DNA of 64,000 bases. Origin: Gordonia zhaorongruii. GTDB taxonomy: Bacteria > Actinomycetota > Actinomycetes > Mycobacteriales > Mycobacteriaceae. Position 1 is the stretch's first letter. Each line of letters begins with the position of its first letter. The translations under genes were made by a program, and so were the position numbers. Location of the stretch: positions 620,001-684,000 of the forward strand of contig NZ_CP041763.1 in assembly GCF_007559005.1 (NCBI RefSeq). The letters are read 5' to 3'. The notes under the pieces were generated by a model, which saw only the letters and a list, made by a program, of their open reading frames with translations, had not been told where the DNA came from and did not search any database. Shown piece after piece: positions 1,121 through 24,335 of the stretch.

Positions 1121-2584
1121 TCAGTCCGACCCGAGTACCTCGCCGAGCACAGCGTCGGCCGACTGCGGCAGCCTGGCGATCAGGTCGATGGCGGTCCGCG
1201 CCGCCCGGTCGGCGAACGCCTCGTCGAGGATGTCGGTGCGGTACTCGACGTCGAGGCGGAGATCGTCGTTCTCGCTGAACTCGAACGCGAGTGACAGCGG
1301 ATAGTGCACGACATCCTTGGTGATCGTCTCGCAGGTGACGTGCGCGCCCTCGGGCACAGCGATCCCGCGCAGCGGGGCGTTCTTCACCAGCGTCATGATC
1401 TCGGCGACCGGGAACCGTCCGCCGTCGGTGCGCAGTGCGGTGAGGATGGTCCCGTAGTCGATGGCCGAGTGCTCCATCGCGCCGTACACCGCCGCAACCC
1501 CGCTTCGCAGCGCGTCGCCGGTCCGGTCGCGGCGGTCGAACGTGAACCGCATGGGGATGATGTTGCCGGTGTAGCCGACCCGATCGGTGGTCTCTCCGGG
1601 GGCCCGGTTGTCGGCGGGAACCAGCATGACGAAGTCGTCGGACCCGCTCATTGCACTGACGGTGAGTGCGGAGATCACGATGAACAGTGCGTTCGGGGTG
1701 GCTCCGACCTCGCGTGCGAAGGCGACCGAACGCTTCACGTGAGCGTCGGGGACCGGCAGGCTGAGGCAGCGGCCGGGACCTTCGCCCATCACCGAGAACC
1801 AGCTGTCCTCCGCGCTGGACGCAGGCAGCTGTCCGGACAGCGGGTAGCGGATGCCCTCGGCTGCCCAGGTGCGCTGCGCGTGCCGCACCGCCGCGTCCGC
1901 GTGGGCGCCGGTCCGGGTTGACGGGTCGACGGCGGCGCCGGTCGGCAGCACGACCGCGCTCCGGGCATCGCCCGATACGAGGGCGCCGATCACCGGCGGG
2001 AGGATCGTCTCGTCGCCCGCCATGTGGTGCAGCACCAGAATCATCGAGACACCCGTGTGGTGCCGCAGTACCCGGACCCGGCAGGGCGGTTCCTCGGTGA
2101 GCCGGAACGGCGCCGCCGCGAGGGTCTGCGCCGCCTGGGCGACAGCGTCCCCGGCAGATCGGCCCCGAGCCTCATCGGCGCCGTCCGTGGGGATCTCGCC
2201 CCACTCCCAGACCTCGCCCGGGACCGCCCACCGGCCGTTCCGTTCGATGGCCCGTCGGCGTGGCACACCGTCGACGACCTCGATGATCGAGCCGATGACC
2301 TGGGAGGAGGCGATCAGCCGCTCGGTCGCGGCGACCACGTCCTCGATCGAGTACGGGGCGCCGAACTCCAGATGGACGGCGAAGTTGTGCGAGTCGGACT
2401 CGGGATCGATCTCGTAGATCTTCCACATCCGGCGCTCGGCGATGCCGAGCGCACCGTCCGCGGTTTGCGGCTGCGGCGCCGACTCGTCGGCGCTGGACCC
2501 GGCCTCCGTACCGGCAGTGTCGATTCCGGCGGCTGCGAGTCGGCGACGCATCGCCTCCTGCTGTGCATCGGTCAGGACGTTCAC
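1121..2584 (-). CDS. Free-standing NRPS condensation-domain protein (second of two)
   Basis: A 487-residue single-domain protein of the condensation (C) / CoA-dependent acyltransferase superfamily and the last gene of the biosynthetic operon. The active-site motif reads HHMAGDE at residues 186-192: the catalytic second His and the Asp of HHxxxDG are kept, but the final Gly is Glu. The GTG start at 2584 was chosen because it overlaps the stop of the upstream acylase gene (GTGA) and follows a good AGGAG; the frame stays open further upstream but that stretch lies inside the acylase gene. There is no carrier or adenylation domain. By analogy to VibH, a free-standing C protein that condenses a carrier-bound acyl group with a soluble amine, it may form an amide between the NRPS-bound salicyl-oxazoline and a hydroxycadaverine unit. 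This role is inferred. Confidence 0.75.
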
Positions 2585-4935
2585 GGATTCTCCTGCGTTC
2601 GGACGGCCCCGGGCGTCGAGGCAGTGTGTGCGGACGGGGTTCGTGCGGCGTGATCGCTGCGCAGCGCCGTCCAGTCGCTGACGACGTCGACGAGTTCGCC
2701 GCGGGACCAGGCGAAGGTCTGGTCCTGGAAGTGCTTTGACCGAGGGTCGCCACTGGCGCCCATCGGCACGATCCATCTGCTTCGGTCGCGGTCGCTCATG
2801 TCCCACACGTAGCGCGCCACGGAACCGAAGCGGCACACGTGGGAGACACCGACGACGCTGGAGTTGGCGAACACGCACTCGGCGTCGCCGCCGAGACGGA
2901 CCGGATGGGGACGGACCTGCTCGGACAATTCCGAATACTTCGGTGTGACCCCCGCGAAGTCCATGCCATGGAACGGCACGAGGACGTGAACGTCACCCCA
3001 GGCCGGAACGACCGGCACCGCATCGGTCTCGGTGGCCAGCGACTCGAGTACGGCGGTCGCCGACCGTTCCACGTCCAGACCGATCCCTGGGGCTCCGGCG
3101 ATGATGGACTCCAGCGCCGCGGCGACCCTGATCGGCACGGAGAAGAACGGCGTGATCCACATCGGGTAGCCGTGCGGGGCGGTCAGGCCCGACAGCGCCG
3201 GATCGGCGGAGATCGTGCTGACTAATCGGCTGCGGAACTCCGCGAACAGATACGCCTCCTGACTGGCGGCGTGCATGCCGCCGTCCCATGTGAGCAGTCG
3301 ATCTCGCAGTGCGCGTCCGCGTTCACTCACGTCGGTCAGGGAAGCGATCAGGTCGGTGATGACGGCGGCCGGCGCATTGGCGACGTCGCGATGGATCGTC
3401 TCGCATCCGTCCACCGAGCCTGCGGCCGGATCCGAGAGGAGCCGATCGATCCGTTCGGCACGGGCAGGCGGCGCGCATTCGGTGGTGGTGGGCTGCATCG
3501 GCGAGCAGTCGGGGATGCGCTGGTTCGCGATCACGGCGTGCGAGGTCACTGCGGCGTCGAAACCGTCGTCGAGTACCGATGGAGTCTCGTACCCACGCCA
3601 GCGGTGCCGCTCGTCCCAGCCGGGCACCGGCAGCCAGTAGTTCTCCGCCGCCCTGACCGGGAACCGGCCCACCGTGTGCCGAGTGAGACGGCCCGCGGTG
3701 TCCGCGATGACGATCCGGTTGGCGGGCTCCACCCAGTCGGCGAACGCACGCTCCACGTCGTCGACGGATCGCGCGAAGATCAGGTCGGTCACCGCGTCGA
3801 AGGTCGAGGAGGAGTCGGTGAGCATCGGCGTCCGGAGGCTCACCGACCAGGCGTCGTCCGGTCCGCCGAAGACCACTGACCCGTTCGGCGTCTCGATGAT
3901 CTCGACCTGGACGGACTCTCCGCCGCGCACGTCGATGCGCTCGGTGCGCGAGGGCACCGGCGATGCTCCCTCGGGAGTCATGGCGACAACGTCGTCGTCG
4001 CTGCGACTGAGCTTCTCGATGAAGACGTCCTGGTAGTCGGCCATCGCGTTGGTGATCCCCCAGGCAACCGACTTCGCGTGCGCGAAGTGCGGCATGCCCG
4101 GAACACCGGCGAAAGCGAAGCCCACGACGTCGAACTCGGGTGATGCGAGGTGGATCTGCTGGTATACCCCGGGGGTCTCGATGAACCGGTGCGGATCGCC
4201 TGCGATCAGCGGTGCGCCGGTCTCGGTCGCCGATGCCGCGATTCCCCAGGCGTTGCTTCCCGAGATGGCGTCGCCGAGCGGCGGCACCGCAGGATCGGCA
4301 CGAGGCACCGGGCCTGATGTCGGATCCACCGGACAGTGCGCGGTCAGGTCGGCGATGAACTGCGCGTCGGGTCGGTCGGGCACCTGATCGCCGGGGTGCA
4401 CGGGGCCCTCGCAGTCGAAGAGGTCCAGGGCGGCCGGGCCGAGTGAGCGGCAGGCGTTCAGGCGCCACAGCTTGGTGGCGAAGCGGCCGAACATGAGGTG
4501 CGCCGCGAGGAAGACCGCGATCGGCGTCCACGGATCCCACGCCGTCGGACGATGGTCGAATGCGTCGAGCTCGACCGCATGCGCCTCGGCGTGCGATCGA
4601 GTGATCCCGTCGGAGTAGGCGCGGAGCAGGAGCCGCGTCCGTGCGGACGACGCATCGTGGACGCGGCGCGCGACCCGATCGATCTGGGCCCGTCGAACGA
4701 ACTCGTCCCACTCGACTCCGTCGGCGCCGAAGATGGTGGCCGTCCGGCCTTCCGCCCGCAGGCGCAGGAACTCGATCTGCCAGGCGCGGTCGATGCCGGT
4801 GGCGTAACCCTGGCCGAACAGAGCGCCCGCCGCGGAGCCGGACCGGATGTGCGGGATCGCGTGGGCGTCTCGGATGAGCTCGAAGTCGTAGGCAGGGGAG
4901 TGCTCGGCGCGGGGATGGCCGTCGCCGTCATTCAC
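2581..4935 (-). CDS. Penicillin acylase family (Ntn hydrolase) protein in siderophore operon
   Basis: 784-residue member of the penicillin amidase / acyl-homoserine-lactone acylase family. Such precursors self-cleave at a Gly-Ser bond, and the new N-terminal Ser is the nucleophile. Here the motif SGSNAW places the candidate nucleophile at Ser227, so residues 1-226 would form the alpha chain plus linker and 227-784 the beta chain. The N-terminus ([14 protein letters not shown]) is hydrophilic and shows no signal peptide, unlike the periplasmic siderophore-maturing relative PvdQ, so a cytoplasmic site is suggested. A GTG start at 4935 overlaps the end of the upstream condensation gene by 8 nt. 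Position in the operon implies hydrolysis, or formation, of an amide bond during siderophore assembly; which bond is unknown. Confidence 0.85.
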
Positions 4936-6355
4936 CGGAGTCCTCCGCAGTCAGCAGATCCGCGAGCGGCAGGCGTGCCGTGGCGGCGGCGAGGATGTCG
5001 TCGAGATGATCGTGGAGGCGCTCGATGGCGCTGTCGGCGAAGAGCGCGACCCGATAAGAGATCTGCACGTCTGTCCGGTCCGGATGCATGAAGGCCTCCA
5101 CAGTCAGCGGCAATGCGAGCCGTCCCTTGTCAGCGAGCTTCCAGGTCATGGTGGTTCCGGGGAGGTGGATGCCGTCGACCTTCTGGTCGAGGAACAGGAC
5201 GAGGGAATCGAACGGCTGCGCCGCGTCGTCGGCGGTGGCCTTGCGGGCGATGTCGGTGATGTGCGTGAACGGGAATGCGCGATGCGCGAAGGCTGCGTCG
5301 GTCACCGTCCGGGTGTGCTCGACGAGATCGGCGAAACGGGGACCTGCGCCGCGGATGCGCAGCGGGATCGAGTTGCTGAAATTGCCGATCAGGTCCTGGG
5401 TCCCGGTCTCCTCGCGGTTGGCGACTGCAGTCCCGATGAGGACATCCGATCGTCCGGTGAGACGACGCAGAGCGAGGTAGTAGGCCGTGAGGAACACGGT
5501 GAACGGCGGTGTCCGCAGTTCCGAACTCAGGCTCCGCAAAGCGGAGTCGGCGGCGGCGCTCATCACCCGGTCGTGCCGTGTGCTCGTCTCGGGCGCGGCA
5601 TCGAGGCGGTGGTCGTACGGCAGGTTGGCCGTGTCCACGACGCCGGCGAACTGATCCTCCCAGAAACGCGTGTCGGCGGTGTGGTCGGCGGCCGCGAAGC
5701 GATCCTGCTCCCACTCGGCGAAATCGGCCACCTGCCGCGGCGGTGGATCGACTGCGATGTCGGGGCCGGTGAGCGCCGCGTCGTAGAACCGCGCCACGTC
5801 GCGGGCCATCACCGGCAGGGTCATCCCGTCCCAGAGAATGTGCTGCATCGCGACGACCATCGCCAAGCGCGGCGCACCCGCCGCATTGGACGGCAGGTCG
5901 ACGAGACTCACCCGCACCGACGACTCGGCCGCCAGATCGAACGGCTCGGTCGCGGCCTTCGAGATGAGCTCGTGCAGGCGGCACTCCGGGGCGGAAGCCG
6001 GCCGCAGATCGACGGACGCGACCGGCAGCGGGAACTCCTCGTGGATCCGTTGGAACGGCTCACCGTCGGCGTCGGCGTGATACGTCGTCCGCAGGATCTC
6101 GTGGCGGCGGACGACGGCGAACAGCGCCCGGCGCAGTGCTTCTCGGTCGACGGGGCCCGTGTACGTGAAGGCGAGGCAGATGTTGTTCGCGGTGCTCTCG
6201 GGAACACGCCGCTGGTGCGACCACACCAGCCGCTGGCTGAACGACAGGGGAGCGCGGTCGGGCGCCCGCCGCGCGGGCACGGCGGGCACGTCCGAGATTC
6301 CGGCGTCGGCCAGTCGGCCCTGCATCGCGCGATGCAGCTCATCGAGTGCTGACAC
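4928..6355 (-). CDS. Free-standing NRPS condensation-domain protein (first of two)
   Basis: 475-residue stand-alone condensation protein. A short leader (residues 1-30) precedes the C-domain start motif LSFSQRLVW. The active-site motif is QHILWDG at residues 171-177, so the first His of HHxxxDG is Gln while the catalytic second His and DG remain. The GTG start at 6355 lies 6 nt downstream of the NRPS stop codon, and the 3' end overlaps the acylase gene, so translation is probably coupled. No carrier, adenylation or thioesterase domain is attached. With the MbtB-like enzyme lacking a thioesterase, one of the two stand-alone C proteins is the obvious candidate for releasing its product by aminolysis, as VibH does in vibriobactin synthesis. 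The division of labour between the two is not visible from sequence. Confidence 0.85.
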
Positions 6356-6361
6356 GGTGAT

Positions 6362-9300
6362 TCAGTCCCTCCCTCTCGGGGCGGTCGTTGCGAGTTCCGG
6401 TGCGGAGACACCGGCCACGTCGAGAAGGATCTCGGCGACCTGCGTGAGCCTGCCGGGCACCTGCTCGCGTTCGGCGAGCACCGAGGCGAAGCCGCGGACC
6501 GTCCTCCCCGCGAAGACGTCGGTGATCCCGATTCGCTCGACGGCCAGCAGACCGCGGACATTGGCGACGAACGTGGTGGCCAGGATCGAGTTGGCACCAG
6601 CATCGAAGAAGTCTGTGGTGACACCGAGCCGGTCCACCTCCAGCACCTGTTCGGCGATGTAGGCGACCGCGGCTTCGACGACGCTCTCCGGCGCGACGTA
6701 CTCGCCCTGGGGTGCTCCGGTCAGCGCCCGTTCCAGCGTCTCGTGAATCGACGCCCGATCCACCTTCCCGTTGGCGGTGAGCGGAACCTCGTCAACGAGG
6801 CGGACCACCTCGGGGACCATGTACTCCGGCAGTCGGTCGCGGAGGCCGGTCGTCACCGATGGCGAATCGGATGCCGCCCCGTCCGATGCTGCCGTCACGG
6901 CGAGTCCGAGTCGGCCGGCGAACACAGCGGCGACGGCCTCTCCGATCCCGGGAAGCGCCCTGGCCGCCGCCTCGACCTCGCCGAGCTCCACGCGATACCC
7001 ACGGATCTTCACCTGGTGGTCGGCTCGTCCGAGGAAGTCGATCGTCCCGTCCGGCAGGTAGCGTGCCAGATCGCCGGTTCGGTACCAGCGCACATCGTTC
7101 GCGATCACGAACCGGTCGGCGGTGCGCTCCGGGTCATCGCGGTAGCCGTCGGCCACACCGGCCCCGCCGATCCACAGTTCGCCGGTCACCCAGTCGGGGG
7201 TGTCCTCCAGTCGGTCGTTGACCACGCGGCAGTGCACGCCCGCCATCGGCCTGCCGTACGGAACGGCCGTCCAGTCGGCCGGGAAATCGTCGGTGACCTC
7301 GTAGACGGTGGAATGGATCGCGGTCTCGGTGGTACCGCCGAGACCGGCGAACCGCAGACCGGGCACGGCGGCCCGGGCACGCCTGCCGAGATCGGCGGCT
7401 ACCCGGTCGCCACCGGTGATCACGGTGCGCAGTGTGCGGAGCTGTGAGGCGCCGGCGCTGTCGAGGAGCATGCCGATGAGTCCGGGAGCCGCGTTCACCA
7501 CGGACACGCGGTGCGCCGTGATCCGGTCGGCCCAGGCCTGCGCGTCGCGGGTGTGCTCTCCGTCGATGCAGACGAGCGCACCGCCCAGCGAGAGCGGACT
7601 GAAGATGTCGAAGACCGAGAGGTCGAACTCCAACGCCGATAGGCCGAGCGTCCGGTCGTCGGAGCCCAGACCGAACTCGTCGGTGATCGCGTCGACGGTA
7701 TTGGCCGCGGCGCGATGGCTGACCTGGACGCCCTTCGGTTCACCGGTCGACCCCGAGGTGAACAGGACGTAGGCCAGGTCATCGGGGTCGCCGACGATGG
7801 GACGATCGATCGGCGACGCGGTCACGGCGTCGTCGAACACCACGGGAGTCGCCAGGGCCGGAAGCTCGGACGTCTCCTGCGAGATCACCGCGCCGACCTG
7901 TCCGCGCGTGAGGATCCGGTCCCGACGCGCGCTCGGCTGCTCGGAGCCGACCGGCAGGTACACAGCGCCGGCCGCGAGTGCGCCCAGGACCGCGATCACC
8001 TGGCGGTGACCCTTGGGCAGGATGATCGCGACCGTGTCGCCCGGAGCGATGCCCGCGGTCTGCAGCGCCCCGGCCACCGAGCGCGCCTGCGCGGCGACGG
8101 CCGCATAGGTCAGCTCGCGGCCGTCCGCAGTCACCAGCGCGGTGCGCTCGGGAGAGCGTGCCGCGCGGTCGAAGAACGCGCCGTGCAGCGTGCGCGGCAC
8201 GATCGTGGACGGCGCGGCGGCGGCGCGGTCGCGCACCTCTCGTTGTGCGGCGGGCAGGCCGATCTCGAGTGCTTCGCTCCAGTCGGCGTCCTCGGATACC
8301 AACCCGTCGAGGATCGAACGGAATTCGGCGAACATCGTCTCGATCATGCCGTCGGGCAGTGCATCCCGGCGCACGTCCCAGTTCACCAGGAGGCCGCCGT
8401 CGAGTTCCACGACCTGTGCGTCGAGGTCGACCTGCGGACCCTGCGACAGGATCCAGACGGGCTCGCCGAACAGGAGTCGAGCACGATCGGACACTAGCTC
8501 TCCGAACCCGAGACCCGAGGTGAACACCAGCGACGGGGTGACCGTCGAACCGCGCTGCCTGCTGAGGTCGCGCAGGACGTCGAGGCCCTCGTACGCCGCG
8601 TGGCCCGCCGAGTCGTGCAGTTCCCGCTGCAGTCGGCGCGCCCGGTCGATCATCGACTCGACCCGAGTCGCATCGGCATCGATGAGCACCGAGTTCGTGA
8701 AGTCACCGACCACCTGATCGATGTCCTCGTGGACCGGTTCGCGGTTGAACAGCGGGACATTGAGGAGGAAGCGCTGATGCGTCGACCAGCGTGCGACGAC
8801 CTCCGAGAACACGGCGGCGAGCGTGACCGCGGGGGTGAGTCCGTGCGAGTACGCGGCGGAGTAGAGCCGTTCCCTCTCCGGCGCAGCGAGCCGATGGTGG
8901 TACCGGACGCTGCGGTCGGGTTCGCGGCGACGCTCCTCGGGGACCGTGGGTAGTGAGGGAGTGTCGGGCAGGGCGGGCACCTTCTGCTCCCACCAGTGAC
9001 GGGCCACCTCGTACTCGGCCTCGGTCACGTGGTCGTCCTTGCCCGCGAGGTACTCGCGGAAGGTGCAATCGATTCGCGGCAGCGGCGCGTCGGTCTCGTA
9101 GGCGATCGCCAGATCGTCCAGTACTCGTCGATAGCTCATGGCGTCGGCGGCGAGCATGTCGACGTCCAGGTGGATCCGGTGTGCCCCATCGGGAAGCAGC
9201 GTGAGAACGACCTCGATCACGAGGCCCGCGGCGGTATCCAGCACCTGGTGACTCATGCGGTCCCGGGTCCGTTCCAGCTCCGATTCCACATCCCCGGCGG

Positions 9301-9886
9301 CGTTCCGCAGATCCACCATGCTGAACACCGAGCGCGGCGGACGCGGAAGGATGCGCTGGGTCCCGGCGTCGTCGAAGGCCGCGCGCAGCATCTCGTGCCG
9401 TGTGACGACGCGGTCGACCGCTCGCTCGAGCCGGTCCGCGTCCACACCGCGGCCGTCGAACTCGGCGAACAGGTGCGCGGCGACACCGCCGAGGGCCTGA
9501 CCGTCCTGGCGGCCGACCCAGTACGCGTGCTGCATCGTGGCGAGACCGAACGACGAGTCGTCGGTCACCTGGTCGTCAGTCACCTGGTCCGTGCTCGCGT
9601 CGACATCGGGCTCCGGCACGGGGGCCGGCTCCCGTGCCGGGGGTGCCTGCGTTTCAGGGGCGTCGGAGTCCTCGCCGAGCAGGCGGGCCCACGCCTCGAC
9701 GGTCGGGTCCTGGGCCAGCTGCGAACTGCGGACCGCGTATCCCCGCTTGCGCCAGGCGCTGGTCAGCTTGATGACAAGCAGTGAGTGCATGCCGTGGCGG
9801 ACGAGGTCGTCGGCGTCGCCGATGCTCTCGGAAGGGATGTCCAGCAGCGCTGCGACGTCCTCGCGGATCTGGTCTCTCGAAATCAC
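6362..9886 (-). CDS. MbtB-like NRPS: carrier - cyclization - adenylation - carrier, no thioesterase
   Basis: 1174-residue nonribosomal peptide synthetase with the MbtB domain order. An N-terminal aryl-carrier-like domain (about 1-72) has its phosphopantetheine Ser35 in GMHSL. After an acidic linker comes a heterocyclization domain with the DxxxxD motif DMLAAD (243-248) and Ser251. The adenylation domain contains FTSGSTGEPKG and YRTGDLARYLPDG. The C-terminal carrier has FFDAGANSI. Family knowledge: MbtB takes salicylate on its first carrier, activates Ser/Thr and forms the 2-hydroxyphenyl-oxazoline of mycobactin. My by-eye reading of the specificity residues (about D-L-F-N-I-G-L-I-H-K) is nearer the Thr code DFWNIGMVHK than the Cys code. 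M. tuberculosis MbtB ends in a thioesterase, which is absent here, so another protein must release the product. Confidence 0.93.
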   Translation of the reverse strand: MISRDQIREDVAALLDIPSESIGDADDLVRHGMHSLLVIKLTSAWRKRGYAVRSSQLAQDPTVEAWARLLGEDSDAPETQAPPAREPAPVPEPDVDASTDQVTDDQVTDDSSFGLATMQHAYWVGRQDGQALGGVAAHLFAEFDGRGVDADRLERAVDRVVTRHEMLRAAFDDAGTQRILPRPPRSVFSMVDLRNAAGDVESELERTRDRMSHQVLDTAAGLVIEVVLTLLPDGAHRIHLDVDMLAADAMSYRRVLDDLAIAYETDAPLPRIDCTFREYLAGKDDHVTEAEYEVARHWWEQKVPALPDTPSLPTVPEERRREPDRSVRYHHRLAAPERERLYSAAYSHGLTPAVTLAAVFSEVVARWSTHQRFLLNVPLFNREPVHEDIDQVVGDFTNSVLIDADATRVESMIDRARRLQRELHDSAGHAAYEGLDVLRDLSRQRGSTVTPSLVFTSGLGFGELVSDRARLLFGEPVWILSQGPQVDLDAQVVELDGGLLVNWDVRRDALPDGMIETMFAEFRSILDGLVSEDADWSEALEIGLPAAQREVRDRAAAAPSTIVPRTLHGAFFDRAARSPERTALVTADGRELTYAAVAAQARSVAGALQTAGIAPGDTVAIILPKGHRQVIAVLGALAAGAVYLPVGSEQPSARRDRILTRGQVGAVISQETSELPALATPVVFDDAVTASPIDRPIVGDPDDLAYVLFTSGSTGEPKGVQVSHRAAANTVDAITDEFGLGSDDRTLGLSALEFDLSVFDIFSPLSLGGALVCIDGEHTRDAQAWADRITAHRVSVVNAAPGLIGMLLDSAGASQLRTLRTVITGGDRVAADLGRRARAAVPGLRFAGLGGTTETAIHSTVYEVTDDFPADWTAVPYGRPMAGVHCRVVNDRLEDTPDWVTGELWIGGAGVADGYRDDPERTADRFVIANDVRWYRTGDLARYLPDGTIDFLGRADHQVKIRGYRVELGEVEAAARALPGIGEAVAAVFAGRLGLAVTAASDGAASDSPSVTTGLRDRLPEYMVPEVVRLVDEVPLTANGKVDRASIHETLERALTGAPQGEYVAPESVVEAAVAYIAEQVLEVDRLGVTTDFFDAGANSILATTFVANVRGLLAVERIGITDVFAGRTVRGFASVLAEREQVPGRLTQVAEILLDVAGVSAPELATTAPRGRD

Positions 9887-9937
9887 GTCACTCCTACTAA
9901 CGAAAATGTGCGGGTGCAGATGATGATGTGCCGGGCA

Positions 9938-11251
9938 CTACGCGTCGATCTCCTCGTCGGTGACACCGAAACTCGTGAACGCGGTGTTGCGCGGCAGTCG
10001 GTAGGCCTCGCGGCCGGTTACCGCGTTGAGGATGCGAGCGTTGCGGACTGCGCCGATGTCGAGGTTGGGAGCCGACACCCCGTGGGCGTGGGTCTCCGCG
10101 TTCGCCACGAAGAGCCGGTCGGTCAACTGCGGGTCGGATGCCACCGAGTGATTGGCCTCGACCACCAGACGTCCCTGCGAGTCCCGCCGGAGTCGGTCGT
10201 CGATCGGGCCGAGGAACGGTTGCTGCCGCTCCCGGTACCCGGTCGCGGCGATCACCAGGTCCGCGCTGTGCGCGATCGCCGTCTCGGTGTCCAGGTGACG
10301 GCCGCGCACCCGGATCCGGCCGGCGGGCTCGGTCTCGAGTGCGTCCACGCGGACGCCGGTGCGCAGACCGACCGGAGCCAGACCGTCGAGCAGCTGCCTG
10401 CGGTAGAGCAGGTCGTGCAGGCGCTCGAGAGTGTCGCTCGAGATCCCCTTGTGAAACTGCCAGTGCCCGGCACGGACACGGTCGCGAGTGCCCTCGGGCA
10501 GACCGTGGAAGTAGTCCATGTACGCCGGAGTCGTCATCTCCAGGGACAGCTTGGTGAAGTCCAGGGGAGCGAACCACGGCGTGCGGGTCCACCAGCGCAC
10601 CGCCGGACCTCCACGCAGGTTCGCCTCGAGCAGGTCGACGACGATCTCCGCACCTGACTGACCCGAGCCGATGACCGTCACCGCGTCCGCCGCGTGCGCG
10701 GCTTCCTGGTGATGCAGATAGGTCGAACTGTGCACGACGGCAGGCGAATCCGACTCCATCGCGGCGGGGACGGTCGGTTCGGTGCCGACTCCGATCACCA
10801 CGTGGTCGGCATGGATGGTGGTGGCGACTCCGTTCGCGGTGGCGATCACCTCGAAGCGCTCGGCGTCGTCATTCCAATACACCTCGTCGACGGTCGTGCC
10901 GAAGCGCAGGGACGTCAGCCGGCCGACGACCCACAGCAGGTAGGCCTCGTACTCGCGCCGGGTCGGAAAGAACTGCTCCCGCACGAGGAACGGGTACAGG
11001 CGATCGACGTCCGCGAGGTAGGCCAGGAACGACATCGGATGGGTCGGGTCGACGAGTGACACCAGGTCGCTCAAGAAGCTGACCTGCAGGGTCGCCTCCT
11101 CGAACAGCAAGCCGGGATGCCAGCGGAACTCGGGTACCGAGTCGACGACAAGGACGTCCAGGTCGTCGACGGTCGAGGCCATGGCCGCGAGACCCAGGTT
11201 GAACGGTCCGCAGCCGATCGCCAGGACATCGACGGATACGGGATCACTCAT
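9938..11251 (-). CDS. DesB/IucD-like diamine (cadaverine) or lysine N-monooxygenase
   Basis: 437-residue flavin-dependent N-hydroxylating monooxygenase. It has an N-terminal FAD site with the GCGPFNLGL motif, an NADPH-binding segment VTVIGSGQSGAEIV, and the late ATGYRER motif of the lysine/ornithine N-monooxygenase family. Such enzymes use FAD, NADPH and O2 to hydroxylate the terminal amine that later forms a hydroxamate. With a decarboxylase and a DesD-like synthetase in the same operon, N-hydroxylation of cadaverine, as by DesB in desferrioxamine synthesis, is more likely than hydroxylation of lysine. The start overlaps the decarboxylase gene by 8 nt. The gap to the NRPS gene (about 50 nt) is the only sizeable one within the core operon. 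Confidence 0.9.
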   Translation of the reverse strand: MSDPVSVDVLAIGCGPFNLGLAAMASTVDDLDVLVVDSVPEFRWHPGLLFEEATLQVSFLSDLVSLVDPTHPMSFLAYLADVDRLYPFLVREQFFPTRREYEAYLLWVVGRLTSLRFGTTVDEVYWNDDAERFEVIATANGVATTIHADHVVIGVGTEPTVPAAMESDSPAVVHSSTYLHHQEAAHAADAVTVIGSGQSGAEIVVDLLEANLRGGPAVRWWTRTPWFAPLDFTKLSLEMTTPAYMDYFHGLPEGTRDRVRAGHWQFHKGISSDTLERLHDLLYRRQLLDGLAPVGLRTGVRVDALETEPAGRIRVRGRHLDTETAIAHSADLVIAATGYRERQQPFLGPIDDRLRRDSQGRLVVEANHSVASDPQLTDRLFVANAETHAHGVSAPNLDIGAVRNARILNAVTGREAYRLPRNTAFTSFGVTDEEIDA

Positions 11252-12848
11252 GGATGTCGACCTTGTCTGTCACGCCGTACTCGGCCTGCTCGGACTCCAC
11301 TTCCAGGGCGAGGCGCAGAAGCTCGTCGAACAGTTCGTCGATGTCGGACCCGTTGGCTGCCGGATTCAGCAGTGTCAGCTTGAGGCACGTCGACGCGTCG
11401 TCGTCGCCGCCGATGCGCACCCGCGTGCGTCCGATCAATGCCGTGCCCGAACTGATCAGACGACGGCGCAGCTCGGAGTTGACCCCGTCGAGGGCCTGGC
11501 AGCGGTACCGGAACACCACGGTCGTCAGGGTCACCGGGGCGACCAGTTCGAGCTGTGGCTCGGCGACGATCCGCCGCTCCGCGTGCCGAGCGAGTTCGTG
11601 ACAGGTGTCGAGGATGTCGCCCAGACCGGAGCGCCCGTACGCGAGGAACGTGGTGAGGACCTTGAGAACGTCCGGACGTCGCGTGGTCTGCAGGGTGTGG
11701 CCGAGCAGCCCACCGAAGCCGGCTTCCTCGTCGTCCTCCGGGTTGAGGTAGGCGACGTTGCGATCGAGGGAGGAGAACAGATTCTCGTCGCGGAGCAGCA
11801 GGACGCTGGCCGCCGCCGGCTGCCAGCCGACCTTGTGCAGGTCGAGAGTGATCGAGTCGGCGCGCTCGAGGCCGTCGACGAGACCGCGCAGGGTGTCCGA
11901 GAACAGCGATCCGAAGCCGTACGCCGCGTCGGCGTGCAGCCAGACCTGGTGGCGCTCGGCGATATCGGCGATCGCATGGAGTGGATCGATGGTGCCGAAG
12001 TCGGTGGTGCCCGCAGTGGCGACGATGGCGAGAGGCGTACCCGCAGTGGTGGCGAGGGCGCATTCCAGAGCGGCGGGGACCATCCGGTGATGCTCGTCCA
12101 CCTCGATGGGCACGACGGCGCCCTCGCCGAGGCCGAGGGTGGCGCACGCCCGGTTGATCGAGAAGTGCGCCACGCGTGAGCAGAACACCACCGGACGGTC
12201 CAGGTCGGCCACACCGTGATGCCGGGTGTCGATGCCTCGCTTCGCGGCGGCGTGATCCCGGGCGATCAGCAGGGCCAGCAGGTTGGAGAACGATCCGCCG
12301 GGACCGAAGACGCCTCCCGCGCAGGGGGGAAGTCCGGCCAGTCTGGCGAGTGCCGCGATGGTCCATTTCTCGATCGCGAGCGTCGCCGGACCGGAATCGT
12401 AGGTGTCGAGCGATGCGTTGGTGGCGCTCGCCATGGCGTCCGCGATGACCGACACGGTCAGCGGCGGCGGCTGCAGGTGAGCCGCAGTCAGTCGGTGCGT
12501 GAGATCGAGCCCGTAGGCGGCGATCAGGGCGCCCACTCGGTGCAGGGCCTGGTCCTCTCCGATCCCGTTCTCGGGCAGTTGTTCCGGACCCAGCGAACCG
12601 GTGACCTCCGCGAGCATCTCGCGGGGTGCGCCGTACGGGAGCGGTGAACCGTGGTGACTGCCTTCGACGGCGGCGGCCACCCGTGCCAGGCCTGATCCGA
12701 TGTCGGACCAGCCGCGTCCAGGTGTCGCGAAGCGCGGCTCCGTGCGCGTGTGAGTCAGGTGGTCGTGAGACACGTTGAGCTCCCGTCTGGGATTCGAGGA
12801 AGGTGCGGGTTCGTGTGCGGTAGGCGCAGGCGTGACGCGCGCGGTCAT
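11244..12848 (-). CDS. DesA-like PLP-dependent (lysine) decarboxylase
   Basis: 534-residue group II pyridoxal-phosphate decarboxylase. The PLP lysine is recognised in LDLHKVGWQPAA, and the preceding segment has WLHADAAYG with the cofactor-binding Asp. In desferrioxamine clusters DesA of this family makes cadaverine from lysine; relatives act on 2,4-diaminobutyrate, glutamate or aromatic amino acids. The neighbours (N-monooxygenase, acyltransferase, IucA/IucC synthetase) favour lysine to cadaverine. The ATG at 12848 overlaps the synthetase stop (ATGA), supporting this start. A GTG about 27 codons downstream (VSHDHLTH) is an alternative, because the first 27 residues are Pro/Ala-rich and not family-like. 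Confidence 0.88.
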   Translation of the reverse strand: MTARVTPAPTAHEPAPSSNPRRELNVSHDHLTHTRTEPRFATPGRGWSDIGSGLARVAAAVEGSHHGSPLPYGAPREMLAEVTGSLGPEQLPENGIGEDQALHRVGALIAAYGLDLTHRLTAAHLQPPPLTVSVIADAMASATNASLDTYDSGPATLAIEKWTIAALARLAGLPPCAGGVFGPGGSFSNLLALLIARDHAAAKRGIDTRHHGVADLDRPVVFCSRVAHFSINRACATLGLGEGAVVPIEVDEHHRMVPAALECALATTAGTPLAIVATAGTTDFGTIDPLHAIADIAERHQVWLHADAAYGFGSLFSDTLRGLVDGLERADSITLDLHKVGWQPAAASVLLLRDENLFSSLDRNVAYLNPEDDEEAGFGGLLGHTLQTTRRPDVLKVLTTFLAYGRSGLGDILDTCHELARHAERRIVAEPQLELVAPVTLTTVVFRYRCQALDGVNSELRRRLISSGTALIGRTRVRIGGDDDASTCLKLTLLNPAANGSDIDELFDELLRLALEVESEQAEYGVTDKVDIHE

Positions 12849-14668
12849 GAGGGGGGCGCTCCGGCGTCGGCGATCGGATCAGCGATCGGATTGGCGAGCC
12901 GGTGCTCGGCATCGAGGATGGTGAAGTACGAGTCGCCTGCGTTGACCATCCGCCGGTTGTTGCCGAGCTGCAGACCGTTCATGTGCACGGCCGGAAAGTC
13001 CGGTGCGAACAGGTCCCAGCGCGTGAAGCGAGACTCCAGATCTGGGTGGTCGGCGACGAATTCGTGCAGGCTGTCGGCGACGATCTGCCAGAAATCGGAG
13101 TCGACGATCAGGCGGCCGGTGTGCAGGATCGCGGCGAGGGGACGGAGGAAGTCGTCGAACACGTCCGAGAGGACGCCCAGATTCCGGATGGCGTCGGGCT
13201 CCTCGGTGAGCGCGCGCCTGCACGATTCCGGAAGGTCGGCGGGATCGCTGAAGATGCAGACCTCTTCGCCGATGTCCTTGAGGATGGCCCGTGCGGGTAC
13301 CCCGGAGTCCAGTACGAGGATCAGGTTCTCGCCATGCGGGGAGAACTTCAGTTCGTACCGGTAGAGGAGGTATGCGATCGGGTGGACGTACGACCGCAGG
13401 TAGCGGCGAACCCATTCGTCGGCGGTCAGTCCGGAGCGTTCGATGAACGATCCGATCAGCGGGTCGCCGTGGTGATCGACGTGCAGGAGCGACGCCATGG
13501 TGACGAGTTGCTCGTGCTCGGTGATACGGGGCTCCGGGCTCTGACGCCACAACGCGGACAACAGCTTCCGGTACTCCGATCCGGGCTCGGTGATCGAGTT
13601 GAAGCCGGGGTGCCGATAACCGATCGCGGCGACCTCGAACAGCATCTCGAAGCCGAGCGAACGCAGGTACTCGTCACCTGTCACCTGCTCGCGGACCCAG
13701 TCGTTGATCGCCGGCGTGGTGCGCATGTAGTCGGCGGACATTCCGCGCGTGAAGCCCATGTTGACGATAGACAGCGCGGTCTTCACGTAATGCCGTGCCG
13801 GTCTGGAGACGTTGAACAGGGTCCGGACGGACTGCTGCGGCTGATAGAGATCGGGGGCCTCGCCGAGTAGCACCAACCGCGCCTCGGCGATGTCGGGAGC
13901 GTAGACCCGGGACACCTTCTCGGCCCACTGCCAGGGGTGGACGGGGAGATAGCAGTAGTCCGCCGGGTCGAGTTCCTGATCGGTGAGCACACCGGCGAAT
14001 CTCTCGAGGGTGTCCGACCCCAGTTCATCGCGCAGCAATTCGTCGTAGGAGACGTCGCTCATCGCAGCGAAGTCGCAGTCCTCGCGCCGCGCTGCGAGCC
14101 AGATCAGACGAAGCCGGCTTCCCGACTCGGGCGCGTACGCCGCGATGTCGTCCGAGCTGAAGCCGAGGCGGCCGGCATTGGCGACGATGCAGGGATGCCC
14201 CTCGGTCATCGTCGCTTCGACGGTCTGGAAGTCTGCCGCTGCGAGATCGGCGACCACGATGCGCCGAGCGTCGGGGCGGTCGGCGCTGATGGAGAGGGTG
14301 TTGACGAACTCCTCGATGTACTCGGGCAGGGTATCGGCGGAGATTCCGAGGGTGCGGTGCAGGTCGATGATGAGATCGACGGATCGGACCGGTATCTCCT
14401 CGCCGTCTCGCATGCGACGCATCGATGACTCGTCGACGGCCCAGTTCTCCAGCGAGAGAAGCTCGGCGGCGAAGGTGTACTCAGTCCGTCGGTCGTCGGA
14501 GCGGACCAGGTACTCACCGGAAGCCGTCTCGATCGGCCGGATGACCCGTTCGTGGCAGAACTCGGCGAGGATCTTCTTCGCGATTCGGCGGTCGTACACG
14601 TCGCGGAACGAAGGTCGGTGAACTCCGCTGCGGTCGTCCACCGACGTCATCTCAGTGCCGGTCGTCAT
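12845..14668 (-). CDS. DesD-like IucA/IucC family NRPS-independent siderophore synthetase
   Basis: 607-residue NIS synthetase. Hallmark motifs are present in order: [15 protein letters not shown] (ATP/substrate region), [22 protein letters not shown] and the C-terminal-domain motif SPHGEN. The family adenylates a carboxylate and couples it to an amine or hydroxyl. DesD, about 590 residues, joins N-hydroxy-N-succinyl-cadaverine units. Length and neighbours (DesA-, DesB- and DesC-like genes) favour this type over citrate-activating IucA. Two candidate ATGs exist; 14668 gives a 17-nt overlap with the acyltransferase gene, and the second Met (residue 7) would remove most of it. Expected to act in the cytoplasm on succinylated N-hydroxycadaverine. 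Confidence 0.92.
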
Positions 14669-15260
14669 GGACTGCCGGCTTCCGGCCGGTGTCGGTGGCC
14701 CGGACGAAGTCTTCGCGGGTGCAGTAGCTCAGCCGAGCTGTCTTGCCTGCGACGGGGTAGTCGCCGGCGACCCGGAAGCCGACTGCCGAGTTGAGACGCT
14801 GGACCGCTTCATTGCGGACGTCCGGTTCGACGACCACACGTGATGCGCCGAACTCGAAGAACGCCGTGCGCATGATGTAGAGCATCACGTCCCCGGTGAA
14901 GCCCGTGACCTCGTGATCCGAGTGTGCGACGAGCAGGTGCATCCCGACGTCGCCGTCCGCGTGCTGGTATCCGGTGCCGGGTTCGGCCAGCTCGCTGGTG
15001 AGCGGCTCGTACAACTCGAACATGAACTCGGGGCGCTCGTCCTGGTAGCCGATCCGGAGTCCGTGGCCGGATTCGCCTGCGTCCCGGATGTTCTCGGCGA
15101 GAAAGTCGTGCACTTGTCCGAGGTCGCTATCGAGCATGTCCCAGTATCTGGACTTGGGATGAGTCAGCCAGCTGTGCACGGTGGCGGCGTCGCGGTCGGC
15201 GTCGACCTGCGCGGACTGCAGGCGCAGACCCGACGGGGGAGTTGGACTCATCGTTCCCAT
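14652..15260 (-). CDS. MbtK/IucB/DesC-type hydroxylamine acyltransferase
   Basis: About 200-residue GNAT-fold acyltransferase of the siderophore group (Acetyltransf_8: MbtK, IucB, DesC). Recognisable segments are [12 protein letters not shown], the core [12 protein letters not shown], and the C-terminal [20 protein letters not shown]. It should acylate the N-hydroxyl amine, with succinyl-CoA if DesC-like or with a long-chain acyl-ACP if MbtK-like. It is the first gene of the eight-gene operon. Three in-frame ATGs exist (15275, 15260, 15251). The outermost lies on the edge of the IdeR-like box, which should overlap the promoter, so I prefer 15260, with 15251 equally possible. It is the only acyltransferase of this type in the window, so it may have to use two donors. 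Confidence 0.85.
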
Positions 15261-15274
15261 TTCGCTCGATTGCA

Positions 15275-15293
15275 TTAGGTTAGGCTAACAGAA
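15275..15293 (-). promoter_or_regulatory. IdeR/DmdR-type iron box before the biosynthetic operon
   Basis: TTAGGTTAGGCTAACAGAA matches 17 of 19 positions of the IdeR consensus TTAGGTTAGGCTAACCTAA. It lies just upstream of the acyltransferase gene that heads the minus-strand operon. Fe2+-loaded IdeR binding here would repress siderophore synthesis under iron-replete conditions. The match is read from sequence; binding is inferred. Confidence 0.88.
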
Positions 15294-15342
15294 GTTAGAC
15301 CCTATACCGTCGACGCTCACGGGGACAAAGAGGCCGGTGAGG

Positions 15343-16044
15343 TCACCGCCAGTAGGCCTGCGCCTTGATGGATGTCTTCGGCAGTGAGTGTCGGCCACGG
15401 AACGTCTTGGTGATCGACCGCGTGGTGTTCGCATCGCAGGCGATCCACGCGAAAGCGTCGGTGTCGCAGGTGATCTGCTCGGCGGATTCCTGGAGCTCCC
15501 GCCCGTCGTCGATGCGTTCGACCCACGTGACCGTGGTCGCCTCGGTGGCGCGGACCGGCAGGGTCTTGTCCGATTCGTACTGCCACTCGAGCCACACCCG
15601 GGCGGGTGTGCCGTCGATCGCGTCCAGCAGCGAGTTGACTGCGGGCAGTGCGGCCGGGTCTCCGAAGATGAGGTACTCGCTCGGTGTGGGCTCGGGGAGG
15701 CTGAACTTCGATCCCATGACGGTGGCTGCGATCTCGTCACCGGGTCCCGCGGTGAGTGCCCACCGAGCGGCGGGGCCGTCGTGGATGGCGAACTCGATGT
15801 CGAAGGTGTCGTTGTCGGAGTCGGGGTCGCACAAGGTGTAGCCGCGCTGCTGGACCGAATCGCCGTCGGGTGCCCACAGGCGTACCCACTGAGTCGGGTG
15901 GATCGGGTGGTCCGTGAGGAGTCCGCCACCGCTGAATCCCAGTCGGACGTATTTATCCGTGACCTGCTCGGTGGACGTGACGGTCAGAACGTAGTCGCTG
16001 CCGCCCATTGCCTTGAGTATCAGTCCGCTGATTCCTTTTCCCAT
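15343..16044 (-). CDS. Siderophore-interacting flavoprotein (SIP, ViuB/YqjH-like)
   Basis: 233-residue member of the SIP family of FAD-dependent ferric-siderophore reductases. The FAD-binding segment QRGYTLCDPD corresponds to the family RxYT motif, followed by a siderophore-type NAD(P)H-binding half with YLIFGDPAALPAVNSLLD and the C-terminal WIACDANTTRSITKTFRG. These cytoplasmic enzymes release iron by reducing the imported ferric siderophore to the ferrous form. The gene precedes the biosynthetic operon on the same strand with a 67-98 nt gap and has its own IdeR-like box 33 nt upstream, so it is probably a separate iron-repressed unit divergent from the acyl-AMP ligase gene. Confidence 0.9.
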   Translation of the reverse strand: MGKGISGLILKAMGGSDYVLTVTSTEQVTDKYVRLGFSGGGLLTDHPIHPTQWVRLWAPDGDSVQQRGYTLCDPDSDNDTFDIEFAIHDGPAARWALTAGPGDEIAATVMGSKFSLPEPTPSEYLIFGDPAALPAVNSLLDAIDGTPARVWLEWQYESDKTLPVRATEATTVTWVERIDDGRELQESAEQITCDTDAFAWIACDANTTRSITKTFRGRHSLPKTSIKAQAYWR

Positions 16045-16076
16045 GCGGCGACAGTAGCGGAACTCGCGGAAAAAAC

Positions 16077-16095
16077 TTAGTCTAGGCTGCCCTAA
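16077..16095 (-). promoter_or_regulatory. IdeR-type iron box before the SIP gene
   Basis: TTAGTCTAGGCTGCCCTAA matches 15 of 19 consensus positions and lies about 33 nt upstream of the SIP start codon in the divergent 200-bp intergenic region. Confidence 0.75.
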
Positions 16096-16128
16096 ACTAA
16101 TCTGATGGTCCGGATGTGGGGCTCCATA

Positions 16129-16147
16129 GTAGTTTAGGTTAACCTCA
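16129..16147 (+). promoter_or_regulatory. IdeR-type iron box before the fatty-acyl-AMP ligase gene
   Basis: GTAGTTTAGGTTAACCTCA matches 15 of 19 positions of the IdeR consensus, about 100 nt upstream of the ligase ATG. Together with the box at 16077 it makes a two-site divergent regulatory region, one site per promoter. Confidence 0.72.
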
Positions 16148-16245
16148 CCTTCATTGCCAGGTGTTCATCGGGCATTCAGGGCGGATCAGATCTGGCTGCG
16201 AGCGGAACGGCGACGCCACCTCCGCCGAGAGAGTAGGGACTCGAG

Positions 16246-17892
16246 ATGCAACAGAACGGTGTGCTCGCCGCAACCGGTACCGCGAGCGGGCTCGCGGATT
16301 CGATCAGCGAGGTCATGCTCGAAAGCGGTGAGACGCTATCGGTTCTGGACGCGGAGACCGGAGAGTGGGACGTCAGGTCCTGGCGCGCGGTCCACGAGCG
16401 CGCCGTTGAGATCGCGACGCAGCTCCGGGACGACCACCGGGGTGAGCCGCGCGCCGTCGGGCTGATCGGCGATCCCACGGTGGACCTGATCGCGTCGGTC
16501 CAGGGTGCCTGGTTGGCGGGTGCCGCCGTCTCGATACTTCCCGGTCCGGTCCGGGGTGCGTCAGAGGCGCGGTGGGCCGAGAACACTCATGCGCGCTTCG
16601 CGGGCATCGGTGTCCGGACCGTCCTGGGTGGCGGCCGGGAGCTCGACCTGCTGTCCACCATCGACGGGGTGCTGCGCGTCGAGCCGTTGTCGCACTACGG
16701 GGTCGGCGCCGACACCTCGGGCTTCGTGCCGATCCAGGCGGCCCCCGACGCCCCGGCGATCCTGCAGGGTACGGCGGGGTCCACCGGCGATCCGAAGACC
16801 GCGGTGCTGTCCTCGACTGCGGTGCGCACGAACACGACTGCGGTGATCGATCGGCTCCAACTGGACATGGCGCGCGATATCGGCGTGAGCTGGCTGCCGC
16901 TGTACCACGACATGGGCCTGACCTTCCTGCTTGCCGGGATGTGCTCGGGGATCCGTCTCTGCATCGCGCCCAACTCGGCGTTCGGGGCGTCGCCGTTCAC
17001 CTGGCTCGGGTGGCTCTCGGACTTCCAGGCGACCATCACGGCCGCTCCCAACTTCGCGTACGACATTCTGGGCCGCTACGGCCGGCTCATCAAGGATGTG
17101 GACCTCACGAACGTGCGTGTGTCGATCAGCGGTGGCGAACCGATCGATCCCGACGCCTTCGACAAGTTCCTGGCAGTGACGGCTCGTTTCGGCTTCGATC
17201 CTGCTGCGGCTGCGCCTGCCTACGGCATGGCCGAGTCGACGTGCGCGGTCACCATGCCCGCAGTGGGCGAGGGAGCGCAGTACGACGAGGTCGTGGTGAC
17301 CCCGACCGAAGCCGGTGCCGCGCCCCTCCGGCGACGCTATGCGCTGCTCGGGAAACCGTTGGACGGCATGGAGGTTCGTGTCGTCGAGCCGTCCGTCGAC
17401 GTTCCGGTCGTCGAGAACCGGGACGTCGGCCAGATCGAGATCCGCGGCACCTCGATGATGACGGGCTATCTCGGGCACGACGATCACGCCGCAGACGACT
17501 GGTTCCCGACGGGGGATCTCGGATACCTCGTCGATGGACGTCTGGTCATCTGCGGCCGCGCGAAGGAGATCGTCATCGTCGCCGGCCGCAATCTGTTCCC
17601 GGTCGAGGTGGAACGCGCGGCTGCTCGCGTCGCAGGCGTCAAACGCGGCGGGGTGGTCGCGGTGGCCCGGGGTGAGGGATCGGCGCGTCCAGGACTCGTC
17701 GTCGTGGTCGAGTACCGCGGTGCCGATCAGGAGGGGGCTCGTGCGGCGGTGACGTCGGAGGTCGCCTCCGAATGCGGGATCGTTCCTGCTGGCGTGGTGT
17801 TCGTCGGACCAGGTTCCGTGCCCCGGACCACCTCGGGCAAGTTGCGACGTCTGGAGACGCGAAGGCTCGTCGAGTCGGGTGAGTGGAGCTGA
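16246..17892 (+). CDS. mbtM: MbtM-like long-chain fatty-acyl-AMP ligase
   Basis: 548-residue ANL-superfamily ligase closely resembling M. tuberculosis MbtM (FadD33), as I remember that sequence. Shared segments include GAWLAGAAVSILPGPVRGA, VSWLPLYHDMGL and the C-terminal PGSVPRTTSGKLRRL. MbtM adenylates a long-chain fatty acid and loads it on the carrier MbtL, for acylation of the hydroxylamine of mycobactin. The ATP loop reads QGTAGSTGDPKTA and the catalytic Lys is in SGKLRR. This argues that the siderophore is lipidated and that this is not the salicylate-activating enzyme (MbtA). No MbtL-like carrier or MbtN dehydrogenase gene is nearby. It has its own IdeR-like box upstream. Confidence 0.9.
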   Translation: MQQNGVLAATGTASGLADSISEVMLESGETLSVLDAETGEWDVRSWRAVHERAVEIATQLRDDHRGEPRAVGLIGDPTVDLIASVQGAWLAGAAVSILPGPVRGASEARWAENTHARFAGIGVRTVLGGGRELDLLSTIDGVLRVEPLSHYGVGADTSGFVPIQAAPDAPAILQGTAGSTGDPKTAVLSSTAVRTNTTAVIDRLQLDMARDIGVSWLPLYHDMGLTFLLAGMCSGIRLCIAPNSAFGASPFTWLGWLSDFQATITAAPNFAYDILGRYGRLIKDVDLTNVRVSISGGEPIDPDAFDKFLAVTARFGFDPAAAAPAYGMAESTCAVTMPAVGEGAQYDEVVVTPTEAGAAPLRRRYALLGKPLDGMEVRVVEPSVDVPVVENRDVGQIEIRGTSMMTGYLGHDDHAADDWFPTGDLGYLVDGRLVICGRAKEIVIVAGRNLFPVEVERAAARVAGVKRGGVVAVARGEGSARPGLVVVVEYRGADQEGARAAVTSEVASECGIVPAGVVFVGPGSVPRTTSGKLRRLETRRLVESGEWS

Positions 17893-17928
17893 CCGTGCTG
17901 CCGAAGTCGGCGAATGCCCGATTTTAGA

Positions 17929-17947
17929 TCAGGTAAGGCTGGCCTAT
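17929..17947 (+). promoter_or_regulatory. IdeR-type iron box before the transport genes
   Basis: TCAGGTAAGGCTGGCCTAT matches about 14 of 19 IdeR consensus positions, 54 nt upstream of the start of the membrane-anchored protein that leads the uptake genes. It is the weakest of the four boxes, but well placed. Confidence 0.65.
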
Positions 17948-18000
17948 ATTGTCTAGCAAGTGCCGGGCCGCGAGGGTCCGTGAATGAAGGAGCGCGTGCC

Positions 18001-18855: not shown

Positions 18856-18901
18856 TTTCATGAAAGGGCCCTCCACGGAGGGCGGAAGAGGAGAAGCAAC
18901 T

Positions 18902-19891: not shown

Positions 19892-19914
19892 TCGCGTAGG
19901 CGGGTCTGTTCATC

Positions 19915-24109: not shown

Positions 24110-24293
24110 AACGTGCCGACCGGGACCATGTTCAGCGGTTCGGCTCTCATTCAGCGCATACCGATTCGATAACGCGAATCTCGGACATCCCGTGGTCAGC
24201 GGGACCGTTTTCGGACATACGGATAAAACGTCGCCGACGTCCCCTGCTCTTCTGATGCGGAATGTCGTTCAAACGGCTTACGCTCAGTCGGGA

Positions 24294-24313: not shown

Positions 24314-24335
24314 GTGGCACATCAGGAGGGGACCT

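Follow-up and report, generated by a model that had tools for sequence, protein, structure and literature searches.

Which siderophore is assembled when the genes of desferrioxamine biosynthesis and a mycobactin-like synthetase share one operon? This question is raised by a locus of Gordonia zhaorongruii, lying in a stretch of 64,000 nucleotides (the window; G000:C1:620001-684000 of the complete 3.23 Mb genome). The locus is very probably a nocardichelin-type hybrid of a nonribosomal peptide synthetase (NRPS) and an NRPS-independent siderophore (NIS) pathway, with a variant gene order and a nocobactin-like condensation protein, Cdom1, and its predicted product is a lipidated salicyl-oxazoline bis-hydroxamate siderophore. 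The core genes of the locus are:

1121..2584, minus strand: Cdom2, a free-standing condensation protein with HHxxxD, the marker gene of nocardichelin (ncd)-type loci
2581..4935, minus strand: DesG-like penicillin acylase (penicillin amidase) with the N-terminal nucleophile (Ntn) motif SN (Pfam PF01804, 484 bits)
4928..6355, minus strand: Cdom1, a free-standing condensation protein with QHxxxDG (Pfam PF00668, 225 bits)
6362..9886, minus strand: NRPS with the order carrier, heterocyclization (Cy), adenylation (A), carrier (Pfam PP-binding twice, Condensation, AMP-binding)
9938..11251, minus strand: DesB-like diamine N-hydroxylase of the Lys/Orn type (Pfam PF13434, 335 bits)
11244..12848, minus strand: DesA-like decarboxylase dependent on pyridoxal phosphate (Pfam PF00282; nearest in the PDB is 5o5c, a desferrioxamine-pathway decarboxylase)
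12845..14668, minus strand: DesD/NcdF-like NIS synthetase, IucA/IucC (PDB 9nom, NcdF)
14652..15275, minus strand: DesC/NcdE-like N-acyltransferase, GNAT, Acetyltransf_8 (PDB 9nij, NcdE; NcdE entries 9nij-9nim)
15343..16044, minus strand: siderophore-interacting flavin reductase, in line with the operon (Pfam SIP, FAD_binding_9)
16246..17892, plus strand: MbtM-type fatty acyl-AMP ligase (NCBIfam NF004510, 720 bits, cut-off 621)

The original prediction for this DNA had placed DesA-, DesB-, DesC- and DesD-like genes in one operon with an NRPS, two condensation proteins and an acylase, next to an MbtM-like ligase. All of them were found, with Pfam matches above the curated cut-offs and, for MbtM, above that of NCBIfam. 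The operon occupies 16044 down to 1121 of the minus strand, in the order reductase, DesC, DesD, DesA, DesB, NRPS, Cdom1, DesG, Cdom2 and is tightly packed from DesC onwards, with overlaps of 4-17 bp at five of seven junctions and gaps of 6 bp (NRPS/Cdom1) and 51 bp (DesB/NRPS) at the others. The mechanical open reading frame of Cdom2 extends to 2878; its start is probably the GTG at 2584, which gives a 4-bp overlap with the end of the acylase gene, and relatives are of similar length. The modelled structure of Cdom2 is an ordinary condensation fold, by which amide synthase and acyltransferase are not told apart. PDB relatives of the acylase are 35sz, 4hsr and the D-succinylase 7eby, and no signal peptide was seen when its translation was inspected by eye.

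For the MbtB-like synthetase, the proposed carrier-Cy-A-carrier order was borne out by Pfam domains and the Cy motif DMLAADAMS. Two carrier serines are present, the A-domain code was read as DLFNIGLIH, and dihydroaeruginoic acid synthetase (7emy) is its nearest relative of solved structure. Of the NRPS genes containing the 25 condensation-domain matches considered, this one alone scores as Cy type and has the Cy motif (817 bits against 64 for the next, by a profile that included the window's own sequence). Very large NRPS genes lie at G000:C1:2526000-2569500 and 488900-501400 (open frames of 8036, 4096, 2690 and 4613 amino acids), and no Cy motif was found in them.

The hydroxamate enzymes point to nocardichelin rather than desferrioxamine. 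In a PDB comparison, the synthetase scored 937 bits with NcdF (9nom) vs 595 with the best DesD, and the acyltransferase 255 bits with NcdE (9nij) vs 85.5 with DfoC. DesB, with 325 bits to 6xbb, 302 to 5o8p and 165 to MbtG, is closer to diamine hydroxylases than to MbtG and was not identified as a lysine N6-hydroxylase of the MbtG kind. Four core enzymes and the DesG-like acylase are shared with the desferrioxamine cluster desABCD with desG, to which the window adds the NRPS, the condensation proteins and MbtM; in a plain desferrioxamine cluster, DesD would be nearest to a characterised DesD and no NRPS would stand in the operon, and neither is the case here. Instead, enzymes of the NcdF and NcdE kind, an NRPS beside the Des genes and a nearby fatty acyl-AMP ligase are all present, as are, elsewhere in the genome, a salicylate synthase and an aryl-AMP ligase. 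The order NRPS-DesC-DesD-DesG-Cdom2-DesA-DesB of most relatives fetched is not that of the window, but gene order is a variant trait and not a defining chemical one.

A nocardichelin pathway was already proposed for a locus of Gordonia rubripertincta CWB2 in PMC12161575, where the nocardichelins are called the sole NIS/NRPS hybrid family identified by then; PMC13036778, which cites Fisk et al. 2025 (ACS Chem Biol) on nocardichelin (ncd) biosynthesis, also calls petrobactin a hybrid. No characterised cluster of this layout had been named in the original prediction, and this has to be corrected: the class is already in print, and the variant lies in gene order, the extra Cdom1 and the nocobactin-like NRPS. 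From a Gordonia strain, nocardichelin A (C40H65N5O8), B (C38H61N5O8) and a third compound (C42H69N5O8) were reported (PMC6467163), and these formulas equal exactly the sum of a salicyl-oxazoline (from serine), two N-hydroxycadaverines, succinate and a C16:1, C14:1 or C18:1 acid, respectively. Together with the nearness to NcdF and NcdE and the salicylate genes of the genome, this fit supports the nocardichelin-type product, as a prediction. Nocardia-coded ncd loci share the NRPS, acylase, Cdom2 and DesAB set with the window, which differs from them in gene order, in the extra Cdom1, in an NRPS of different lineage, in a salicylate synthase that is not at the locus and in the lack of MbtN within the window. 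The CWB2 locus likewise combines Des genes and DesG with a mycobactin-like NRPS, and its salicylate synthase lies inside the locus (PMC12161575), whereas it is about 330 kb away in the window genome.

The Des genes and the NRPS part could also make two separate products, a desferrioxamine and a mycobactin-like compound. DesABCD alone suffice for desferrioxamines, which speaks for this reading. G. rubripertincta CWB2, with its related locus, does make desferrioxamines (PMC12161575, PMC7262544). In the window, however, the genes are interleaved and overlapping, DesD is nearer to NcdF than to DesD, and the genome holds a single strong PF13434 hydroxylase (335.7 bits, next 37.5) and a single gene with IucA/IucC matches, the DesD of the locus. 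Two products are thus improbable, and the same single hydroxylase and NIS genes disfavour plain desferrioxamine and plain mycobactin from separate loci, which had been named as the outcome that would overturn the original prediction. Desferrioxamines as side products of the locus are possible.

The salicyl-oxazoline half had been assigned to the cluster as a whole. This holds for the NRPS, whereas the genes that make salicylate lie outside: no salicylate synthase is present in the window, and the salicylate synthase of the genome (MbtI; TIGR03494, 441.9 bits, cut-off 325.15) forms a divergent pair about 330 kb away with the aryl-AMP ligase (MbtA; 571 bits), with an iron-box-like site between them. 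Within the window, an AMP-ligase gene at 52911-54452 gave the second-best genome match (214 bits) to the model of 2,3-dihydroxybenzoate (DHB) ligases.

From the genes, motifs, relatives and trees observed, a route may be proposed whose reactions and product are all inferred. Lysine would be converted to cadaverine by DesA, and cadaverine would be N-hydroxylated by DesB and then succinylated by DesC. Part of the N-hydroxycadaverine would be freed by the DesG-like acylase to accept a fatty acid, a role proposed for DesG in PMC12161575. The fatty acid would be activated by MbtM and transferred by a PapA-like protein (described below) or by DesC, and two hydroxamate units would be joined by DesD. 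Salicylate, supplied via the distant MbtI and MbtA, would be loaded onto the first NRPS carrier, whereupon the NRPS would add what is likely serine and close the oxazoline. Release of the aryl-oxazoline onto the free amine is predicted for Cdom1, with or without Cdom2, and iron would be recovered via the ABC genes and the reductase. MbtN desaturates the mycobactin tail. Because MbtN is missing from the window (best match 25%, in a search confined to the window), a saturated tail might be expected, as a weaker further prediction.

To place the locus among its relatives, Cdom2 served as marker. Fifty-nine proteins matched it at E <= 1e-20 among 7995 candidates scored, with Gordonia, Jongsikchunia or Nocardia as named sources, and a scan of IMG/VR with the Cdom2 alignment gave no match. 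Within the genus, 28 of 59 genomes matched at E <= 1e-25, 22 of them strongly; in a draw from the family, 37 of 401 did at E <= 1e-60. The 37 ncd genomes counted below are a different set, comprising the 22 genus genomes and 15 of the 17 other-genus genomes of the family draw; G200 (weak Cdom2; its 20-kb stretch yielded no DesD match) and G244 (a contig-end fragment) had passed the family threshold but were excluded beforehand. Broken or truncated genes with less than 75% coverage are omitted from the gene counts; these are DesG of L085 and L111, Cdom2 of L125, NRPS of L122 and, in 28 loci where the stretch stops short, DesB. The DesG-like match is split in L085 (G035) and L111 (G238), and one in-frame TGA was reported in the Cdom2 match of L056 (G023).

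DesC, DesD and DesA stand at the Cdom2 locus in all 37 genomes (36/36 besides the window). The layout of the window, C-D-A-B-NRPS-Cdom1-G-Cdom2 (type A), recurs with the same genes in the same order in 7 of the 37 loci including the window, and is therefore more than chance. Two Nocardia-coded loci (type A') keep the NRPS-Cdom1 pair in a different order; types B (12 loci, same genus) and N (9, Nocardia-coded) have NRPS-C-D-G-Cdom2-A-B; type C (5 loci) is B-like with an upstream fatty-acid ligase and MbtA; the remaining two are single cases. Cdom1 (>40% identity, 75% coverage) was found in nine of the 37 loci, all of types A and A', in a search of the loci themselves. The NRPS-Cdom1 pair also occurs in 18 nocobactin/mycobactin-type loci of Nocardia and kin, mostly Nocardia, which were fetched with a Cdom1 query (L028-L045; "nocobactin" is our own label). 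Their NRPS is 57-65% and their Cdom1 neighbour 49-55% identical to those of the window but, unlike the window, they have no Des genes in the stretches fetched.

Two quick tree searches covered 26 of 36 ncd NRPS sequences with 18 others, and the hydroxamate genes of 27 of 37 loci. In the NRPS tree, types A and A' stand together (100 in the Shimodaira-Hasegawa-like approximate likelihood ratio test, SH-aLRT), are joined by 9 of 11 nocobactin-labelled enzymes (97) and are separate from B, N and C (100). In the DesC-DesD-DesA-DesG-Cdom2 tree, A' lies within the N loci and genome G088 (100), and A beside this A'/N/G088 group (94, not starred). Since the two trees group the loci differently, the aryl-oxazoline and hydroxamate halves likely have different histories.

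The head group sets the window apart from its closest relatives. A salicylate synthase is present in 30 of the 37 ncd genomes (15/22 of the genus, 15/15 others), and the seven that lack it comprise G088 and all type A genomes except that of the window. At 68-69% identity, the MbtA of the window genome matches those seen in two type B loci; its identity to the ligases of these seven genomes is 42-46%. A stand-alone adenylation protein (G. soli query, E <= 1e-70) was found in 7 of 56 genomes, among the ncd genomes exactly those lacking the synthase; it occurs in none of the 30 ncd genomes with the synthase and in none of 19 Gordonia genomes without Cdom2. This association is not independent per genome, as it comes from one clade and G088. 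In the six type A relatives, the A protein is accompanied by a ligase, a carrier, a hydrolase and a pair of flavoproteins resembling acyl-CoA dehydrogenases, with 60-82% identity between the proteins of G. soli and the other five. A chalkophomycin-like N-hydroxypyrrole cassette was noted at these loci:

L136:4456-11525 (G. soli): chalkophomycin-like cassette beside ncd-type loci without salicylate synthase
L137, L138, L140, L141, L142 with L084; L160 with L134 in part: the same chalkophomycin-like cassette

The code of the A protein, D[ML]FYxA[WF]V, resembles what we take to be that of pyrrole-forming prolyl A proteins, and this code and the neighbouring genes suggest proline as its substrate. 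In chalkophomycin biosynthesis, ChmF releases N-hydroxypyrrole-2-carboxylate and ChmK loads it onto the NRPS ChmL; ChmH is reported to have Glu and the prolyl N-oxygenase ChmG to have Met, and the N-OH is described as a metal ligand (PMC11177257). Counterparts of chmFGHIJK (PMC11177257, PMC11085572), namely a ligase, an A protein, a carrier, one flavoprotein each of the Glu and Met type and a hydrolase, occur in the relatives but not in the window itself, and the proteins are of similar size (PMC11085572). At the position aligned to the catalytic one, the first flavoprotein has Glu in 7/7 genomes and in locus L126 and the second has Met in 6/6, in an alignment made without the ChmG and ChmH sequences. 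The second flavoprotein also shares 52% identity with a protein assigned to Streptomyces anulatus, a species described as a chm host in PMC11177257. The N-O of an N-hydroxypyrrole could replace the phenol oxygen in a six-membered chelate with the oxazoline nitrogen.

Some observations weigh against such a head. The closest relatives of the first flavoprotein are L-prolyl-carrier dehydrogenases (5zw0, 4irn), yet their lead over isovaleryl-CoA dehydrogenase is slight, at about 10 bits (124 vs 114), and the protein stays below the NCBIfam cut-offs for PigA and RedW. Among solved structures, the A protein matches linear gramicidin synthetase (307 bits) and a further peptide synthetase best, and the prolyl ligase 7thn reaches only 192 bits. 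NCBIfam NF045652 was non-discriminating, as 56/56 genomes match via many acyl-CoA dehydrogenases. A DHB head, considered separately for the relatives, was rejected, since E. coli EntB was without a match there and EntA matched only two of the stretches, at 33-35%. Four classes of N-hydroxypyrrole clusters from 97 organisms, in some cases with NRPSs and siderophore transporters nearby, are described in PMC11177257, and the cassette class of the relatives may already be among them; N-hydroxypyrrolyl-oxazoline bis-hydroxamate lipid siderophores were not found described in the literature searched. L126 (G200) holds proteins similar to four of the cassette (the ligase, the adenylation protein, the carrier and, at 46-62% identity like the others, the Glu-type flavoprotein) beside NRPS genes, with no Des genes in the stretch, perhaps for another N-hydroxypyrrole metallophore.

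The NRPS of the window is 71-75% identical to those of the cassette-bearing relatives, and in a concatenated tree of eight proteins, rooted on A', the window falls among the cassette-bearing loci (100/100, 99/99, 99/99). Monophyly of the six cassette loci without the window was rejected (approximately unbiased (AU) test, p 1.3e-06; the test was named after the quick trees were seen). Given this nesting, the simplest reading is that the window lineage lost the cassette and switched to salicylate. On balance we lean towards an exchangeable head, in which the six relatives and the seventh genome swapped salicylate for N-hydroxypyrrole and the window lineage went back to salicylate supplied in trans. 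MbtN, missing from the window, adjoins MbtM in 6/6 type A relatives (two at 661 and 677 bits, below the cut-off of 700).

The relatives also raise the question whether the window uses another head, such as N-hydroxypyrrole-2-carboxylate or 2,3-dihydroxybenzoate, from genes elsewhere, with MbtI and MbtA serving a different product. The window's NRPS may be adapted to some other head, because its six nearest relatives, which are also the closest by gene order, all lack a salicylate synthase and carry the other cassette near the locus; MbtI and MbtA are distant, and a salicylate synthase also occurs in 8 of the 19 Gordonia genomes without Cdom2. However, the cassette A protein was not found in the window genome at E <= 1e-70, no cassette gene had a match in the window at identity thresholds of 30-45% by gene (only the A protein was searched genome-wide), and in the window, the sequence searched with them, E. 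coli EntB had no match and EntA matched two stretches at 30-33% identity. The MbtI/MbtA pair furthermore carries its iron-box-like site. Another head is therefore unlikely, and the salicyl-oxazoline product remains preferred, with further points that count against it. The product of the strain is predicted from its genes, the aryl ligase is below the DHB-ligase cut-off of 723.55, and the A-domain code is identical in ncd- and nocobactin-like NRPSs and does not separate serine from threonine. In addition, Cdom2 alone must suffice in the loci seen without Cdom1, so that the roles of Cdom1 and Cdom2 are candidate ones.

The absence of MbtN and of the relatives' head cassette from the window could be taken as decay of a cluster that makes nothing. 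This is very hard to reconcile with the state of the genes: all frames of the siderophore locus are free of internal stops, and HHxxxD, QHxxxDG, SN, DxxxxDxxS and both carrier serines are retained in its proteins.

Beyond the original prediction, the locus was found to include the reductase, a PapA/WS-DGAT-like gene, a transporter and iron-box-like sites. Divergent from the operon, MbtM is followed by genes for a putative lipoprotein and for an iron-siderophore ABC transporter (18860-22870):

4..1092, plus strand: 3' part of a PapA/WS-DGAT-like acyltransferase with HHSLSDG (Pfam WS_DGAT_cat, 34.7 bits, cut-off 23.6)
15275..15293: iron-box-like site at the DesC start
16077..16095: iron-box-like site between reductase and MbtM
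17914..18855, plus strand: putative lipoprotein (NF053527, 49 bits, below cut-off 105), adjoining the binding protein in relatives
17929..17947: iron-box-like site in the 5' end of the putative lipoprotein gene
18860..19891, plus strand: siderophore-binding protein (Pfam Peripla_BP_2, 74 bits)
19915..20922, plus strand: FecCD permease 1 (Pfam PF01032, 288 bits)
20919..22037, plus strand: FecCD permease 2 (Pfam PF01032, 255 bits)
22034..22870, plus strand: ABC ATPase, with FecE/FepC models nearest but below their cut-offs

The PapA/WS-DGAT-like frame begins left of the window (full open frame G000:C1:619464-621092), and its relatives are linked to ncd-type loci in all layouts seen; the protein is a candidate for fatty-acyl transfer. 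Three iron-box-like sites were found in the window against 0.01 expected, using a consensus that we take to be the pattern of the DtxR/IdeR/DmdR1 family, and none in the 19 kb to its left. Among relatives, at least one site with at most two mismatches occurs in 16 of 23 stretches scanned, and five of six type A main loci have none; conservation thus appears patchy, and the regulation is not established as conserved. A tRNA gene (23086-23158) just beyond the transporter genes is a possible boundary of the region, followed by an LGFP-repeat protein gene (23937-25982) beside a host-surface-lipoprotein-like gene (23426-24109).

NRPS-NIS hybrid siderophores are a small class, counted as one family in PMC12161575. 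The window is predicted to run on salicylate and the rest of its clade, as far as sampled, on N-hydroxypyrrole, which amounts to a natural experiment on the change of a starter by a carrier-Cy pair. From the relatives, a further class of siderophores is likely and is predicted for cultured Gordonia.

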